From Curtobacterium sp. GC_Cur_3 (GTDB lineage Bacteria > Actinomycetota > Actinomycetes > Actinomycetales > Microbacteriaceae): a stretch of DNA of 64,000 bases. Made by a program: the position numbers and the translations under genes. The stretch is from NCBI RefSeq assembly GCF_026544205.1, contig NZ_JALNUI010000015.1, positions 1-64,000 of the forward strand, read 5' to 3'. How positions within the stretch are numbered: position 1 is the first letter of the stretch; each line of letters opens with the position of its first letter. The notes under the pieces are model-generated. The model saw only the letters and a program-made list of their open reading frames with translations. It searched no databases and was not told the origin of the DNA. This document shows, one piece after another, positions 32,581 to 64,000 of the stretch.

Positions 32581-32621
32581 GACGGGAGGCTCGGTGCCAG
32601 CTGGCACTGAGCCTCCCGGTC
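32581..32621. terminator. palindromic repeat family A, copy 6
   Basis: Left arm GACGGGAGGCTCGGTGCCAG; right arm has one substitution (CACTGAG) and one extra base (CCCGGTC). Lies between converging stops, 36 bases from one and 3 from the other. Confidence 0.83.
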
Positions 32622-35605: not shown

Positions 35606-35649
35606 CGGACGGGAGGCGCTGTGCCCGCTGGCACCGAGCCTCCCGTCCG
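35606..35649. terminator. palindromic repeat family A, copy 7
   Basis: Arms CGGACGGGAGGC and GCCTCCCGTCCG with a partly mismatched centre (GCTGTGCCCGCTGGCACCGA). 8 bases behind the MOSC stop (minus strand). Confidence 0.8.
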
Positions 35650-56218: not shown

Positions 56219-56674
56219 TCACATGTCGGCGATGAGCCGGAGCGTGTAGCCGTCGGGGACCGTCTGGTGTTCGACGTAGTGCATGAACACCGGCGCTGCC
56301 TGGTCGGCCGTGAAGAGCTCTGACAGGTGCCGCGGCTCGTGCGCAGCCTGCACGTCGATGGTCTCCGTGAGCGGTTCCGCGAGGTCGTGGTCGCGGCCGA
56401 CGATGTAGAAGCGGTACTCGCCGTCGTCCTCACGTCGGCGGAGTTCGACGCTCATCTTCTCCGCGGTGCCACCGGCCTCCAGGTACGAGCCCCCGTACTC
56501 GTCGATGACCGACTGCGCGCCGGCGCGCCAGGTCTCGTGATCGATCAGTGCGGAGAAGACCAGCCACGCGAAGTGGTCGTCGTTGTCGAGCAGGCCGAGG
56601 CAGCGGCGGACCTGGTCGGGGAGCGGGCGGAACGTGTCCTTTAGGACACTGCTGACCGACCCGTTGGTCTTCAT
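56219..56674 (-). CDS. hypothetical protein
   Basis: 151 residues, no family recognised. Acidic and soluble (LGLLDNDDHFAWLVFSALID, VELRRREDDGEYRFYIVGRD). GC-rich like the core genome; its start marks the left edge of the low-GC island. No clear ribosome site; GATAAT on the minus strand lies upstream as a possible -10. Probably real, function unknown. Confidence 0.65.
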   Translation of the reverse strand: MKTNGSVSSVLKDTFRPLPDQVRRCLGLLDNDDHFAWLVFSALIDHETWRAGAQSVIDEYGGSYLEAGGTAEKMSVELRRREDDGEYRFYIVGRDHDLAEPLTETIDVQAAHEPRHLSELFTADQAAPVFMHYVEHQTVPDGYTLRLIADM

Positions 56675-56689
56675 GATGATCGGACAAAA

Positions 56690-57108
56690 TTATCAAGTTC
56701 CACTTGACCGACACACCCAACACCCAGTCGTACGCGAACGTGAGGAATAACAATCCGCCCACGCGCGTCCCCGATGCATCACCTAGGCACCCAGAATGAT
56801 AGACAGGGCAATAAGAGCAATCATGAGAGTCACGAATATGACACAAGCGCCCCTTCAGCCGGCTTTCACACCACGCTGCCCTAAAGATCCTATGAAAGGG
56901 AGGGGCAATCGCATCGGTTGGATAGGCGGACAGCGTCGTCAACGAACGCGGCCACCAGATGCTTGGTGCAGATTACTCGCTAGTGAGTTCGGCGCGCGGC
57001 CGTGCGTCGTTCACTCGCGGTTGAGGTGTATGCCGCTTCCAGTAACTACCTCCTTGCAGCGGCGGAATTATTCACATTCTGACCACCTTTCGGATGCCCC
57101 ATCGGAAC
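56690..57108. other. low-GC gap at the left edge of the accessory island
   Basis: About 420 bp with no gene I can support. Composition drops at once (AAAATTATCAAG and similar). On the minus strand a short stretch (about 56784-56850) reads CVIFVTLMIALIALSIILGA-stop, like a lone transmembrane helix, but there is no start or upstream frame, so it may be a relic. Confidence 0.5.
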
Positions 57109-57900
57109 TTACCTGGGATCATGCCTCTTCGCGTCTGGCAAGCGAGAAGTTCGCCCGCCATCTACCCGCTCAAACAAGTCGTTGAACCATTGAACGCCCG
57201 CTGCTCTCGCGGACCGTTGAGTCACGCGGGCGCCCGAGATGAAACGCTTCCCACCGTGCACTGTCCCAAATCTTATGCCGTTGCCGATCCTGTGCAGCCC
57301 CACCAGCTGGGGAGCGCCTCCGGAGTAAGGGTCCGCCCGCCCACGTAGGGCTTCAGTGAATGAGCTATAAATGGATCGACTCGTGCCGCCCTGAACACTT
57401 TCCTCCCAAAGCTTTCCGGTTGCCCGAACCTCTCGAGCTCCGCTCCCGGCGAGATGTAACCGCGCAGACTTCCCAGGCATGGCAACCTCCTTCGTATTCC
57501 AGGTCTGGCTCGATGCCTCAAAGGTGATCACCGCGAGCTCAAAAACAGAATCCATTTTATCTCGACGGCGAGTTGCGACGACTAAGCCAAAATCGCGCTG
57601 CTCCTGTAACGGGTAGTCTCTCCACAGTCGCCGAATCGCATCGCCGATGTCGCCGAAAGCTGAGGCCCGCCTCCGCGTCGCACCCGCCGCTATCTCATCT
57701 AGCACTGTTGGAATCGCTAATGCGGGAAACAACACGTCACCCCAGTACCCGAAAATATGGGGAGTGGTTGATGCGGCGAAAGTTTTTCGCCCCTGATTCC
57801 ACTGGTGCGAGTCGCCCCAAGTGATTCTACTGTCGCTCGCGATGTAAATTGAGGACACCGCTCGATGATCCACGCCCGCCCAAGCGATCAGAGTCGTCAC
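57109..57900 (-). CDS. putative proteasome-type Ntn hydrolase
   Basis: 263 residues. The N-terminus (V/M)TTLIAWAGVDHRAVSSIY puts a Thr directly after the start; then IASDSRITWG, the basic block GRKTFAAS and IFGYWGDVLFP follow. This order matches the HslV/proteasome-beta pattern of Thr1, an Asp near 17, Lys33 in a (R)K motif and the GxxGD turn. Removal of Met would expose the Thr as nucleophile. GTG 57900 has AGGGGGG 3 bases before it; an in-frame TTG at 58053 would instead give a 51-residue propeptide. Lower GC than the core. Downstream of the giant island gene on the same strand. Fold assignment is by eye only. Confidence 0.6.
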   Translation of the reverse strand: MTTLIAWAGVDHRAVSSIYIASDSRITWGDSHQWNQGRKTFAASTTPHIFGYWGDVLFPALAIPTVLDEIAAGATRRRASAFGDIGDAIRRLWRDYPLQEQRDFGLVVATRRRDKMDSVFELAVITFEASSQTWNTKEVAMPGKSARLHLAGSGAREVRATGKLWEESVQGGTSRSIYSSFTEALRGRADPYSGGAPQLVGLHRIGNGIRFGTVHGGKRFISGARVTQRSARAAGVQWFNDLFERVDGGRTSRLPDAKRHDPR

Positions 57901-57910
57901 AAGCCCCCCT

Positions 57911-57949
57911 AAAAAAGAACCGGAGCGCCGACTGCTGTCGACGCTCCGG
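57911..57949 (-). terminator. intrinsic terminator or attenuator before the Ntn-like gene
   Basis: On the minus strand CCGGAGCG / CGCTCCGG (8 bp, 14-base loop) is followed by TTCTTTTTT and then directly by the AGGGGGG ribosome site and GTG start. A classical hairpin plus U-tract in the leader of the gene. Confidence 0.7.
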
Positions 57950-58235
57950 GAAGACCTGAGTGCTGTCAAATTGTCAGCAGGGACACCTCGTACCGCCTCG
58001 TATTTGGCGGCCTCAGGAGTTGCGTCCTTGAAGGGCCGATGAAGCCCGAACAAGGTGGGCGCAGCAAGCTGGCGCCAAAAAGAAAGCTATCGACCCCGGG
58101 CGCGCTTGTCAACAAAGTGTGGCCGCTGGACTTCCATGTCACCCAACAGAAGAATCGCCATTCTGTACTTCATTCTCAACATGTTAGACATCTCGACTTT
58201 CTCGGTCGCCCACCCGTTCTGTCACAGAGTCGGCC

Positions 58236-58267
58236 AGCGGCCAAGACGGGGGCCGGCCGCTCCTTTT
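58236..58267 (+). terminator. hairpin with short T-tract, plus strand
   Basis: AGCGGCC / GGCCGCT stem followed by CCTTTT. No plus-strand gene is recognised upstream, so its partner transcript is unknown. Confidence 0.45.
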
Positions 58268-58639
58268 ACAGAGGCGATGACGTTGACTTGGCCTCACATC
58301 CACCGACGGCGAGCGAGACAAATTAGGAGGAAGAGACTTGTTCCCAGTTCGCTCCATCGAGCCACTCTACGATTGCTGCTCGGTCAAGCGGTTTAGCCCG
58401 AGCGAACTTTGTAAAGGAAACGCGAGTCGCTCTGCGATCGGAAGTAGCCCGCTAATGCAGGGACGCAGCGTCGAGCTCACGGCCGAGATCAATTGCGCGA
58501 ACACTCGCGCGGACGCCGCGCGCGGCGCTAAGCCGGGGCACTTTTTGTTCCTGCCGCGCGGCCTCGCTACTTGCACTCCGACACAGGCGGCTGCAGGGGC
58601 CGGCGGCACAGGACGCCGATCGTCACTGTCAGCTTCCAC

Positions 58640-61600
58640 TCACTCGTCCCCGAGACGCTCTGCTTCCAGATCGTGCATCTTCGCCTCTCGAAGATAGCCT
58701 TCCGCGATGCCACGAAGCACACTCGCGGTTCTAGGCCACCGAACTGCGAGGGCCGCTGCGGAATCACGGTAGTTGCGCTCGAGTTCACGTTCCTGGTCCC
58801 CTCCGTCGTAGACAGCACGTGACGTGAACCCGCGTTGATTCGTCCTCCCAACATGGAGTCCGGTTTCGATACGGATACTTACCAACGACTCGATAAGGTC
58901 TCGCACCGGTTCGGCGGGCCAGATCCCGTCCTCTCCTACAGGGCTTACGGAGAGGATCTGGCCAATCTGCTCGTCACCGATCGCGGCGCGGCCGGCATCG
59001 GACAGGGCTGATCGAGCGGCCTGCACCCAAGCGGTGAGGTGCTCGGCATCTATAGATCCATCTCTCTTGCTACCCGGCAGTCCTCTCCATTCGTGCAAGA
59101 TCGAAAACGCTAGAGTGCCGAACGCCGACTCCTTCGCAGTCCGATCGCGTTTTTGCTCACCGTCACCTCGAAAGACCCCCTTCATCAATGCGACGAATTC
59201 GTCAGGGTCGGAGTTGAGCCGACGGTACAGCGCAGATGATGGCCGATGATCCGGGAGTAGATTGAAGAGCGCAAACTCGAGGGAAGGTAGACTCGGCTCT
59301 TCCGGCAATACCGCCTCGAGATGATTGAGTATTGTCGCAACACTGTACCCAGTCATTTGAGCGTCTTCCGGCGGACCGGGAAAGTGTAGCAAAGCCTCCA
59401 GCACAGACAAGGTTATTGAATTATCGAACGTTGAATGCTCTTCCAGCAGTGCTGCCACCAAATGGACCGCAGCCCAGGGCCGTTTATGCTCAAGTAACAA
59501 CTGTACGGCCTCATCACGCTCCCCGAGCGGCACTTCGTAGTGAGAAACATGCGACCAGTACTCAACTTGATAGTCCTGATCAAGCTCGTCGACGACCTGC
59601 CAAAATCGTCGTTCGAAGGGAACAGCATTCATCAAGCTCAGCGGGACTCTCGGGATGTCTCGAAATACGCCGCCGAGCCAAGATTCCCCATTGGTGAGCA
59701 TTCGCGACCGCGCGAACGATGATGCCGCTTCTACGAGATGAACCTCCTCCCGACTCAACCAATCAAGCACCCGCGTAGCTGGTAAGTCGCCGAAATCAGC
59801 CATAGCCTGCCCGACGAGCCTTGGAACTGGAACCGAACTCATGAACGCCTCAAGCTCTACAGGACTAAAGGCGATGAGCTCTTCCACCGCCTCGCGCTGC
59901 ATGTCCGCCAGCCTCTCCCGATAACCTTCTCGGCCCAACCGCCTACCCGGTACGGACGGCCGCCAATCGAATATGCGAGCGAGTCGCCGAGGATCCTCAG
60001 GGCTCGCCAATCGATCAGCAACCGACTTCAGCAGACCTAACCCATCAGCATCGAGTGCCCAGTCAGCATCTGCGTAGTCCTCGTGACGACTGATCTCCTT
60101 CGTCAGCGCCTCCCAAACAGCATATCGATTCTCGCTCGACCAGCCAGAAGATTCGATAACCCCCTGAAGCGTCCTGAGGACGATTTCTCGCCCGCCCTGC
60201 GGAAGGCGATCGACCTTTGACACCAGCTGAGTCCAGCGCTCAGGAGTATCACCAGCGGCCGAAACCGCTATCTTCACAAGCGCTTGGGAGTACCGATGAA
60301 CTTCTTCGTAGGTGACGGAGTTCCTCTTTGGCCCCCAGTCCCGATACGACGGTCGATGTGGAACTAGGCCAACTGCGCGCATGCTGGGCAAACCCGAAAG
60401 AACGAGCGACCAACCGATTTCGGGGGCAAAATCTATCACTCGGCTGATGATGCCAATCTTGTCGTCGACACCGCCACCGCCGTACGGGAAAATGGCCCTC
60501 GTGAGGTTCTGGAGACTTGCTGACGGTCGATTCGACAGCCGTCCGCCAGGATCCAGCATTGAAAGCTTCGCGAGGAGCCTTCCCACATGCCCGAAGTAGC
60601 TCGGCGACCACGACAGGCTCTCCAGCGCCCACAGCAAGCTAGTGTGGGGAGAGGAGGGCGCGAACGGGTCGCCGGCAGCACTCCCATCTCGGAACACCGT
60701 CCGAAGAATTGAGTCGGGTCCACCCGCGCCGAGTTCGACCGCTTCGAGGAACTCGTCCGGTGCCGCTTCAGCAAGCGCCGGAAGTACGGAGGCGATGCGA
60801 GCCCATGTCCCACCCGAGCCGTCGTCATTCGCTCGTTGCAGGACTGCTCGGACGATAGAGCGCACGTAGGGATTTACATCGACGGCCGCCGATACATCCA
60901 ATGCGGTGGCGCCAGCGAGTGCCACCCCATCTGCCAGGTGCTGACGGAGTGTCCCGGAGATCGACGACTCTGAGTCGGAGACAGAAGCCGCGATGCGTTC
61001 CACGGGCGTCAGGGCCTCAAGCGGATCTTCCGCGAGGAGATGATGGATGACCGTTTCGCGCCAGCGATGGAGGTCGGCGTCCGTCAGGTGCGGGAAGAGT
61101 AGGAGAGCTGCCTCTACTGGTGCAACCGGCCGCCAAAGCCCCCCGGAGTGGACGAAGGGTGCCTCCGCTGTGGCGGCCAAGGTTCGCAACTGCTGCTCGA
61201 CCGAGCGGCTAGAAGTTTCGGTGAGGCACTCGATCACAGCGGAGTCGGCCGGGGTGGACGTCCAGGAGCCGGCAAGTATGAGCGGTGCCAGGATGGCCGC
61301 GACCGCGCCATCGATTGCCCACGGCGGGACCGTCGCGCGAGGGTCTCGGGCGATGGATCGGAAAAGCGCTGGCATGCTTCGTCGTCCCAACGCCACGAGT
61401 TCTTCGGCAGTATGGAAGTCGACATCGCTCTCCTCGAGTACCTGCCGGGCTTCTACCCGGTCAATCTTTGGTAGGTCGATGCCATTACCCGGCCGTACGG
61501 TCTCAGTCGCCCCGGCCACGAGGATAACCCGATGGCCTGCATCGGTCGCGATCTTGATGTCTGGCCGTCCGTCGAAGTACGGAATCAAGACCATGGGCTG

Positions 61601-62584
61601 CGACGATGCGCTCAAGGATGTCCAAGCAGCCGCGTCAGTCACCACGAGGACACGGTCAATGACGTCGCCTGCGGGATGCAGCGCTGCATGAACGAATGCG
61701 AGCGCATCATCAACCCAAGGCGCTCGAACTGTGATCACTGCATCCGACGCCGCGTCGACGATAACCTGCGTCAGCTGCTCAGCCTCGGTTGCCCGCCCAG
61801 CAGTGAAGAACGCCGTAGGCAGCTCGAGCCTCGAACGCCCGCTGAAACTCAACCACCAGTCAGTAATCACACGAGCATTGCGCGGGTGTCGACCCAGGCG
61901 TTCAGACAACCAATAATGCACGGACGGCGTCGACTGGAGCCAGCCTTCGAGAACATGCGCATCGATTGCCTTAACGGCAGCAAACACGCCATCTTTAGAA
62001 CGAGCGTCCGCCCAAGCCCGTCCGCCCGCCCAGTTGCGAGGTGTCGCGTACACAAAAGTGTGTTGCTTGGCGCTCGCGTCAAAGCCGACGCGCTTGTCGT
62101 AGTCGGCTTGCGCCTTTCTCTTTGAATCCTTCTCCGTGCCGAACTCAAACCGCAGGTCCCCCCGAGGCAGAAATGGACCACCGCCCGAAGACGCTGAGCC
62201 GTCCCAACCGGGAGCAGCAACTCCCTCGTGGGACCGAATGTCGAGGTCCACGACGTGCGAAGACGCGGCTAGCAGTCGACGCATGAGTTCGGGGAAAGCT
62301 CCCTTGGCGTCCTCCGACATCGCCCACGCGTCGAGGTCAGCTGCCCGGACCAAGTCAGGACCAAGAGGTTTGACCATCGGCACGATTGATGAGACTGCCT
62401 CTCCCCGATGGGCAGCAAACTCGAGTACGTGCTCACGAGCGAACCGATGCTGCTTAGCGCCCGGCAGACGAGCGGACACTAACGTGCCCTTCGCAGCCCA
62501 GTTCCGCACTGTGTTGGGATGCACTCCAAGGAGACGAGCGGTCTCGCCAACCGTCAGATACGCAGCGTCGGATGTGCGTTTCAT
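58640..62584 (-). CDS. giant multidomain protein: excisionase-like HTH, nuclease-like domain, P-loop-like region, helical repeats
   Basis: 1314 residues, no family name known to me. Residues 9-58 form a MerR/excisionase-type winged helix (AYLTVGETARLLGVHPNTVR, NWAAKGTL, then QHRFAREHV). Residues about 97-235 resemble a PD-(D/E)XK-type region with GWDG (126-129), LRFEFGTEKD (Glu147) and KRKAQADYDKR. Residues about 282-360 look like a P-loop NTPase core, VITVRAPWVDDALAFVHAAL then PMVLIPYFDG, but lack GKS/T. The remaining ~900 residues are mostly helical, HEAT/ARM-like. Lower GC than the core. ATG 62584 follows TACGGT by 6 bases (leaderless). The layout recalls large STAND-like defence proteins, but this is inference. 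Confidence 0.7.
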   Translation of the reverse strand: MKRTSDAAYLTVGETARLLGVHPNTVRNWAAKGTLVSARLPGAKQHRFAREHVLEFAAHRGEAVSSIVPMVKPLGPDLVRAADLDAWAMSEDAKGAFPELMRRLLAASSHVVDLDIRSHEGVAAPGWDGSASSGGGPFLPRGDLRFEFGTEKDSKRKAQADYDKRVGFDASAKQHTFVYATPRNWAGGRAWADARSKDGVFAAVKAIDAHVLEGWLQSTPSVHYWLSERLGRHPRNARVITDWWLSFSGRSRLELPTAFFTAGRATEAEQLTQVIVDAASDAVITVRAPWVDDALAFVHAALHPAGDVIDRVLVVTDAAAWTSLSASSQPMVLIPYFDGRPDIKIATDAGHRVILVAGATETVRPGNGIDLPKIDRVEARQVLEESDVDFHTAEELVALGRRSMPALFRSIARDPRATVPPWAIDGAVAAILAPLILAGSWTSTPADSAVIECLTETSSRSVEQQLRTLAATAEAPFVHSGGLWRPVAPVEAALLLFPHLTDADLHRWRETVIHHLLAEDPLEALTPVERIAASVSDSESSISGTLRQHLADGVALAGATALDVSAAVDVNPYVRSIVRAVLQRANDDGSGGTWARIASVLPALAEAAPDEFLEAVELGAGGPDSILRTVFRDGSAAGDPFAPSSPHTSLLWALESLSWSPSYFGHVGRLLAKLSMLDPGGRLSNRPSASLQNLTRAIFPYGGGGVDDKIGIISRVIDFAPEIGWSLVLSGLPSMRAVGLVPHRPSYRDWGPKRNSVTYEEVHRYSQALVKIAVSAAGDTPERWTQLVSKVDRLPQGGREIVLRTLQGVIESSGWSSENRYAVWEALTKEISRHEDYADADWALDADGLGLLKSVADRLASPEDPRRLARIFDWRPSVPGRRLGREGYRERLADMQREAVEELIAFSPVELEAFMSSVPVPRLVGQAMADFGDLPATRVLDWLSREEVHLVEAASSFARSRMLTNGESWLGGVFRDIPRVPLSLMNAVPFERRFWQVVDELDQDYQVEYWSHVSHYEVPLGERDEAVQLLLEHKRPWAAVHLVAALLEEHSTFDNSITLSVLEALLHFPGPPEDAQMTGYSVATILNHLEAVLPEEPSLPSLEFALFNLLPDHRPSSALYRRLNSDPDEFVALMKGVFRGDGEQKRDRTAKESAFGTLAFSILHEWRGLPGSKRDGSIDAEHLTAWVQAARSALSDAGRAAIGDEQIGQILSVSPVGEDGIWPAEPVRDLIESLVSIRIETGLHVGRTNQRGFTSRAVYDGGDQERELERNYRDSAAALAVRWPRTASVLRGIAEGYLREAKMHDLEAERLGDE

Positions 62585-62920
62585 GCTGGCACCGTAGCAC
62601 CATGTGGTTTTTGTGTCTTACCCAAGTCCGAGCTGCACGACTCGATCCAGCTTGAACCAGGTCCTACGCACGCCACGTGCACGGCGCGGAGAGCCAAGGC
62701 TGCTCTAGAGCTTGGACTCGACTTATTCGGGCGGAACTGTCGAAGCGTCCTCAAGGGCTCCGCATCGATCACGGCGGTTGACTGAATCTCGACGTCGTGA
62801 GCTGCACCAGCTAACTCTTGGCGAGCTGGCGACTTGCGGACCTCATGCGCGATCGGTCAAAAATGGGTCGGTCGCCCACCGGCCGAAGCCAGCGGGGCGT
62901 CCCCACGCGTCAGAGCAAGC
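62585..62920. other. gap at the right edge of the island
   Basis: 336 bp without a supported gene. It includes the promoter of the giant gene (TACGGT, minus strand, 62591-62596) and, behind nrdF, a weak hairpin with ATTTTTG on the minus strand near 62860-62885 that may terminate it. No attachment-site repeat or tRNA was found. Confidence 0.5.

Positions 62921-64000
<1,080 letters not shown>

Follow-up and report, generated by a model that had tools for sequence, protein, structure and literature searches.

STAND immune proteins, among them plant NLRs, Apaf-1 and bacterial Avs, are understood as nucleotide-driven switches. Here we describe P0001, a 1314-residue protein encoded in the first 64,000 nucleotides of contig NZ_JALNUI010000015.1 from Curtobacterium sp. 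GC_Cur_3 (this whole stretch is referred to below as the window), in which a helix-turn-helix (HTH), a PD-(D/E)XK-like nuclease, a STAND-like core without nucleotide-binding motifs and a HEAT-repeat tail are joined in one chain. The systems that come closest are PD-lambda-4, Avs and the inactive STAND (iSTAND) proteins. PD-lambda-4 reportedly protects against phage, and the "_A" in the name of the PADLOC model PD-Lambda-4_A (PDLC03991) presumably implies a partner gene.

A table in PMC10952713 places PD-lambda-4 with those Vassallo et al. 2022 systems that contain a P-loop NTPase. Proteins of the PD-Lambda-4_A type resemble P0001 in their colinear nuclease-like head, STAND core and repeat tail and in their length of about 1,280 residues; however, Walker A and a D...QxK nuclease signature are retained by all five that we compared, whereas P0001 and its relatives lack both Walker A and the Walker B acid and differ in their nuclease signature. 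At the fold level, models suggest that P0001 also shares with Avs the order of N-terminal effector, STAND core and C-terminal repeat sensor, and passages of PMC12931631 describe the effector of Avs1-4 as a nuclease and Avs5 (PaAvs5) as requiring both Walker A and Walker B. P0001 differs in its missing Walker motifs, in its HEAT-type tail and in matching no PADLOC Avs profile; given what PaAvs5 needs, the P0001 family, if functional, must operate in another way. The idea that inactive STAND domains act as sensors is already known: in sections of PMC7159879 and PMC12839542, the iSTAND proteins of MoxR-vWA and BREX have eroded Walker motifs and are proposed to be sensors or relays, although those proteins sit in multi-gene systems, whereas P0001 holds nuclease, core and HEAT tail in a single chain.

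P0001 is probably a single-gene immune receptor against mobile genetic elements, a nucleotide-independent nuclease sensor of the Avs/PD-Lambda-4 kind, with phages as its most likely target. The C-terminal HEAT superhelix would sense an invader-derived molecule, the STAND fold would serve as a nucleotide-independent structural relay, and the N-terminal PD-(D/E)XK-type nuclease, once released, would cut DNA and so end replication or kill the infected cell; for the HTH, repression of the protein's own promoter or guidance of the nuclease to DNA is the most likely role. If a large family has indeed kept its nuclease site and lost both nucleotide motifs in this way, the ATP-free passage of a signal through a STAND fold becomes testable.

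Domain architecture and lost nucleotide motifs of P0001

58640..62584, minus strand: P0001, 1314 residues, HTH, PD-(D/E)XK-like nuclease, inactive STAND and HEAT repeats (profiles and models)
62411..62560, minus strand: HTH domain, residues 9-58, MerR/excisionase-like (Pfam HTH_17 and MerR_1, NCBIfam excise)
61922..62362, minus strand: PD-(D/E)XK-like nuclease domain, residues 75-221 (AlphaFold2 (AF2) model; VIA-align to FokI and MspJI)
62201..62203, minus strand: putative catalytic D128 (codon checked)
62144..62146, minus strand: putative catalytic E147 (codon checked)
62114..62116, minus strand: putative catalytic K157, a migrated lysine (codon checked)
60905..61885, minus strand: STAND-like NTPase region without Walker A or B, residues 234-560 (Foldseek to Avs4, Avs3 and AVAST5; VIA-align to AVAST5)
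61694..61738, minus strand: lost P-loop region, residues 283-297 (motif absence in the family alignment; hhalign alignment)
58643..60952, minus strand: HEAT-repeat superhelix, residues 545-1314 (AF2 model; likeness to karyopherins, PP2A-A and condensin HEAT subunits)

Sequence and prediction together establish this domain order. An AF2 model of residues 70-560, built from 60 sequences (pLDDT 93.5, pTM 0.91), aligns in VIA-align from residue 75 with the FokI cleavage domain (Z 8.0, 134 residues aligned, root-mean-square deviation (rmsd) 4.1) and with MspJI (Z 7.8, 137 aligned, rmsd 4.4). Conservation was read from an alignment of 90 family sequences, comprising P0001 and 89 locus open reading frames (ORFs) longer than 1,200 residues; broken or shorter copies (L013, L037, L040, L071 and L086) fall outside it. 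In this alignment D128 and E147 are invariant (90/90) and K157 is present in 86 sequences, while a lysine at the canonical ExK place, K149, is found in two, both among the four that lack K157, and no sequence has both lysines. If the two K149 sequences were placed at random, the chance of both falling among those four would be 6/4005, a figure that is post hoc. The alignment points to a functional nuclease whose lysine has migrated. The fold of a PD-(D/E)XK enzyme is predicted here, and its acidic pair and lysine are matched at the level of sequence conservation.

An earlier note on this DNA, made from the letters alone, had described P0001 as a nuclease-like, P-loop-like and helical-repeat protein of STAND type. 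A nuclease-STAND-repeat architecture is borne out by Foldseek, which with the model of residues 70-560 returns Avs4 (E 8e-6), Avs3 (E 2e-5) and AVAST5 (E 4e-4) as its best PDB matches, followed by CED-4 and Apaf-1 at E above 0.001. VIA-align places AVAST5 on residues 234-560 at Z 8.4 (269 aligned, rmsd 6.5), a Z similar to that given by many unrelated AAA+ chains on the STAND core. The P-loop-like part of the description survives as a STAND-like fold but not as a nucleotide site, since Walker A and Walker B are both absent. At the Walker A position, GxxxxGK[ST] occurs in 0 of the 90 sequences, and the P0001 octet APWVDDAL (residues 288-295) aligns by hhalign with GLSGVGKT of a PD-Lambda-4_A protein; a stray GKS is present in one sequence (L092), and ADE.LGKS lies about 70 residues further on in two. 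A strand at residues 309-326 that had been considered as Walker B is the wrong strand, and the right one lacks the acid: the position of the Walker B aspartate, 335, is acidic in 0/90 and proline in 56.

On profile comparison, P0001 is remotely homologous to PD-Lambda-4_A. A weak in-register match of the PADLOC model to one homologue led us to fetch proteins matching that model, which were found in 9 of 398 genomes (phylum of a Bradyrhizobium locus), and four of these proteins were used. Run against the 90 with hmmsearch, a profile of the four recovers family members at a best E of 9e-17; when the 90 are compared with the four in hhalign, Prob is 98.9 and E 2e-17 over 922 columns (residues 202-1234). 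With a fifth protein added (L005g2, spotted by eye next to a Rhizobium homologue and matched by the four-protein profile at E 1e-106), the result is Prob 99.5 and E 2e-23 over 1,030 columns (residues 95-1236). In control comparisons, 20 column shuffles each reach at best Prob 0.3 with the four and 0.2 with the five, and GapS6b reaches 0.2.

The N-terminal HTH that the earlier note had seen is confirmed by Pfam HTH_17 (E 9e-11) and NCBIfam excise (E 9e-8). Nothing else was recognised by Pfam and NCBIfam profile searches of P0001, and PADLOC returned just mad1 and MTase_II matches, both at the HTH end. The same note called the fusion of an excisionase-like HTH to such a protein unusual, and here the family disagrees: an N-terminal extension of at least 60 residues is present in 48 of the 90 sequences, with an HTH_17 match in 23 of these and an HTH_3 match in 19, so that the HTH is an exchangeable add-on. 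Upstream of P0001 lie two short, imperfect palindromes that are not interpretable.

Residues 79-1309 of P0001 match phrog_18693 in PHROGs (E 6e-126), which is listed there as of unknown function; a viral structure library gave no match at E up to 0.001. With one degenerate pattern, a single search through 84,980 species genomes turned up 575 stretches that encode relatives, and the record titles of the best 80 name Actinomycetota, Pseudomonadota, Bacteroidota, Bacillota, Chloroflexota, Planctomycetota, archaeal metagenome-assembled genomes and others. In the open-licence PMC papers that were searched, no description of the family was recognised, which argues only weakly that none exists. The defence protein of a Gifsy prophage was rejected as a family member; an excerpt of PMC12724215 identifies it as a ParA-like ATPase.

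Two loci show further arrangements of these relatives. In Rhizobium gallicum, a Walker-A-bearing, PD-Lambda-4_A-like ORF of 1280 residues lies directly behind a P0001 homologue (L005:11834-15676), so a relative with a dead core and one with a live core can be tandem neighbours. Another PD-Lambda-4_A-like ORF (L193, 1591 residues) has an N-terminal extension in which an XRE-like HTH can be made out by eye, much as HTHs are fused to P0001 and its relatives.

The HEAT-repeat tail and its exchanged partners

The tail of P0001 is predicted to be a helical superhelix (AF2 model of residues 545-1314 from 46 sequences; pLDDT 90.6, pTM 0.74) that resembles karyopherins, PP2A-A (Z 10.6) and condensin subunits (Z 9.7), scores that for repeat proteins denote only a common arrangement. 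Relatives of this tail are also found without the rest of the protein. Of 11 viral-contig loci, nine match solely from about residue 405-429 onward, the other two (L096 and L100) including the nuclease part, and three plasmids match solely from residue 439 or 663 onward. Four of the loci examined (L095, L097, L101 and L110) have another N-terminal region with a Q-x-K-x-S stretch, a motif that makes this head putatively nuclease-like, though Pfam does not support it; the idea of a Cap4/DUF4297-like head, suggested by its motifs, found no such Pfam match. Three more (L102, L103 and L111, about 920-932 residues) start with SG/TG-x-G-x-N and lie directly behind a relative of gapS6a. The HEAT part adjoins gapS6a in E. 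coli (by annotation), in Buttiauxella and in a viral contig, and a linkage in Photobacterium is deduced from positions across a record start.

GAPS6 is a system composed of GapS6a and GapS6b. In the P0001 family, gapS6a neighbours the HEAT part in nested variants, and at the window locus there is no gapS6a: P0002, the product of the second gene of the island described below, and P0003 have no GapS6a match in NCBIfam and no PADLOC match (PD-Lambda-4_B was not sought at homologue loci). True GapS6b (NF047936) was rejected as a homologue, being not detectably related to the family (hhalign Prob 0.1-0.2; no NCBIfam match for P0001). The HEAT tail therefore occupies the place of GapS6b beside gapS6a, which supports a sensor role for it.

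In a midpoint-rooted tree of the HEAT part, from which four near-identical Rhizobium loci were omitted, seven variants without the nuclease-STAND part, which retain the protein only from about residue 405-439 onward, form a clade (support 0.994) that is sister to a Shewanella nuclease-STAND member (1.0). Within it, the three gapS6a-linked proteins are a clade (1.0), and the four with the alternative head are unsupported as one (0.074). The nuclease-STAND part has thus been replaced in a nested clade. The HEAT tail links three architectures, and a single search for a trigger could consequently explain several systems. More tentatively, and with slightly less than even confidence, we propose that the family is a widespread class of NLR-like receptors without a nucleotide switch, in which a HEAT sensor acts through a dead STAND core on an intact nuclease; such a class would be related to PD-Lambda-4_A, perhaps derived from it, and its tail would have been re-plugged to a second nuclease-like head and, in trans, to GapS6a.

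Genomic settings and competing explanations

56682..62874, no strand: variable island (hotspot cargo) of low GC content, without similarity in relatives
57109..57900, minus strand: P0002, N-terminal nucleophile (Ntn)-hydrolase-like gene, 263 residues, GTG start, a non-conserved neighbour (homologue starts; alignment)
56219..56674, minus strand: left-flank gene, 151 residues, marker of the island edge (flank comparison with relatives)
62921..63985, minus strand: nrdF, conserved right-flank gene (name taken from the earlier note)

Among 66 genomes of the genus, nrdF is present in 65, P0001 in three and the Ntn gene in one. The earlier note had suspected an accessory, variable locus, and the segment beside nrdF does differ in all 20 relatives examined (besides the window's own, 64 genomes of the genus have nrdF, and these 20 are mostly the closest among them); the island segment has no similarity in any of their 20 stretches. 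Beside nrdF in relatives, 43 cargo ORFs chosen by eye matched 147 PADLOC families (E up to 1e-5) versus one (WYL) for 43 other window genes chosen by script, the left-flank gene included; related models count repeatedly in this output, so that 147 versus 1 should be read as a contrast, not as a rate. Among the 25 of the 147 families that were listed are CBASS-type cyclase, TRIP13, E1-E2, type II and type III methyltransferases, AriA, Ppl and TIR-TM. Judged by these matches, the nrdF-adjacent site resembles a defence hotspot in Curtobacterium, and it is a ready place to seek more defence genes in the genus.

Homologues elsewhere have similar company. A random draw of 148 from 243 neighbouring ORFs (258 before four Rhizobium loci were dropped; ORFs above 700 residues excluded) matched 219 PADLOC families, and the 25 of these that were listed include AbiEi/AbiEii, a type I restriction endonuclease, a type III methyltransferase, GajB and a phospholipase effector. 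In several plasmid records, AbiE, SIR2, RES/Xre, Abi or restriction genes are annotated nearby. The defence-island setting anticipated for this locus is therefore seen both beside nrdF in relatives and around homologues elsewhere. The anti-phage logic of sensor plus effector, which had been ascribed to P0001 and the Ntn gene as a pair, finds support in the architecture and defence context of P0001 alone and fails for the pair.

A number of observations weigh against P0001 as a nuclease sensor of the Avs/PD-Lambda-4 kind directed at phages. For example, the PADLOC model PD-Lambda-4_A does not match P0001 at E up to 1, and its match to a homologue (L036), although in register, is weak (E 0.0023). 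Single PD-Lambda-4_A-type proteins give hhalign Prob values of 3, 9, 34, 69 and 90, and since the alignment with the four-protein set begins at residue 202, the nuclease heads are less securely homologous than the remainder. Lysine 157 lies off the textbook ExK position, VIA Z scores are middling (about 8) and Foldseek TM-scores are low (0.25-0.31). At the nrdF site, the 43 cargo ORFs were hand-chosen and PADLOC tallies families rather than ORFs; an Arthrobacter plasmid copy has little defence context; and we found no experiment on any protein of exactly this architecture. Additionally, since the family is common on plasmids, its role could be in conflict between plasmids or in regulation and not in defence against phages.

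Plasmid-directed conflict is in fact a serious alternative, although we consider it unlikely: P0001 would be directed at plasmids entering the cell, or at other mobile DNA, and not at phages, with the HTH binding element DNA and the nuclease cutting it. Of the 22 plasmid records with P0001 matches (coverage of at least 80% in 14), 11 are predicted conjugative; ParAB or ParB genes lie near the homologue in a Shewanella and an Arthrobacter plasmid; and many of the N-terminal extensions are HTHs. However, relatives are also found on viral contigs, two of them (L096 and L100) with the nuclease part, the nested variants are located in E. coli prophage regions, and the 42 of 90 family members without an extension of 60 residues rule out DNA targeting through the HTH as the core function. 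We give still less credence to a role without immunity, in which P0001 would serve mobile elements in DNA repair or regulation and its nuclease would process DNA; an HTH, a nuclease and HEAT repeats would suit such a protein, as would the TniQ profile match in 2 of the 148 neighbour ORFs, but the remote homology to PD-Lambda-4_A, the fold similarity to Avs, the replacement of the effector, the gapS6a linkage and the defence-rich sites all speak for immunity instead.

The improbable extreme among these explanations is a two-gene sensor-protease system of P0001 and the Ntn hydrolase. The two genes share a strand and an island, both are rare and patchy, and nuclease-protease pairs are known in antiviral immunity, though in the part of PMC12799240 that bears on this the protease is trypsin-like. 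Yet the genes are 740 bp apart, with no convincing gene in the gap, and an Ntn relative is present in 0 of 103 other P0001-family loci (66 of which extend at least 3 kb on both sides). Of 398 genomes from the bacterial family, 14 match P0001 (three over a short stretch, two of these in the HTH alone) and two have an Ntn match, the window's own included, which is the only one to hold both; the nearest Ntn relative (63%) belongs to a genome without a P0001 match. The conserved linkage that a single system would show was thus looked for and is absent, which leaves P0001 as a defence candidate unaffected, and the Ntn hydrolase appears to be an independent passenger of the same hotspot.

The Ntn-hydrolase-like gene and the edges of the island

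For P0002, the GTG start at 57,900 is preferred over a 314-residue ORF with a TTG start because the annotated coding sequences in three homologues from plasmids start at the corresponding residue and because Thr or Ser follows Met in all five aligned sequences (T in four, S in one). K39 and GSG 152-154 are likewise present in 5/5, and we assume for the Thr/Ser, the lysine and GSG the roles that such residues have in HslV and proteasome subunits. No convincing match was found in Pfam, in NCBIfam or among PDB sequences. Relatives are present on six plasmids and were found neither among viral contigs nor among phages. On Pseudomonas and Arcobacter plasmids (L107:6408-9559 and L108:6677-9513), the Ntn gene lies about 30 bp behind another gene, which in Arcobacter is annotated as HEPN/Toprim-associated; the two partners are unlike each other. 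The Ntn neighbours in genome G401 and on plasmids from Pseudomonas, Arcobacter and Agrobacterium have no mutual similarity by blastp at E up to 0.01, the sole cross match being a 46-residue piece of an Agrobacterium neighbour against the G401 stretch (E 0.005; best for the island, E 0.67). The DNA upstream of the Ntn gene is not similar to that of G401, where the sole 20-bp match is the gene's own start.

The island (56,682-62,874) has a GC content of 59.7%, compared with 71.1% for positions 1-56,681, where 202 island-sized segments have a minimum of 67.6%. The sharp drop in composition that the earlier note reported is therefore real, but its placement between two GC-rich core genes is not, since nrdF has a GC content of only 0.62 and the right flank is not GC-rich. 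The note's count of convincing genes in the island holds as well; there are two, P0001 and the Ntn-hydrolase-like ORF, both on the minus strand.

On the nrdF side, 14 of the 20 relatives lose similarity exactly at position 62,875, and the other six do so at 62,879-62,920. The left-flank gene is present in six of the 20, and in four of those six similarity ends at exactly 56,681; between the flanks, these stretches carry 0.7 to 8.4 kb of other DNA (4.4 kb in L153, 5.7 kb in L155). The remaining 14 have a different order beyond nrdF. The left-flank gene also aligns at two places in L156 and at three in L159.

Finally, a 16-bp palindrome, GGTGCCAGNTGGCACC, is found, when up to two mismatches are allowed, at seven places in the window (15092, 32593, 35620, 37882, 53522, 56149 and 63971), giving 14 strand matches versus 0.25 expected. 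Relative to the chosen ORFs, the copies at 32593, 37882 and 56149 are intergenic and that at 35620 is within an ORF; the copy at 63971 overlaps the listed start of nrdF. The palindrome is perhaps a repetitive extragenic palindromic (REP)-like element.

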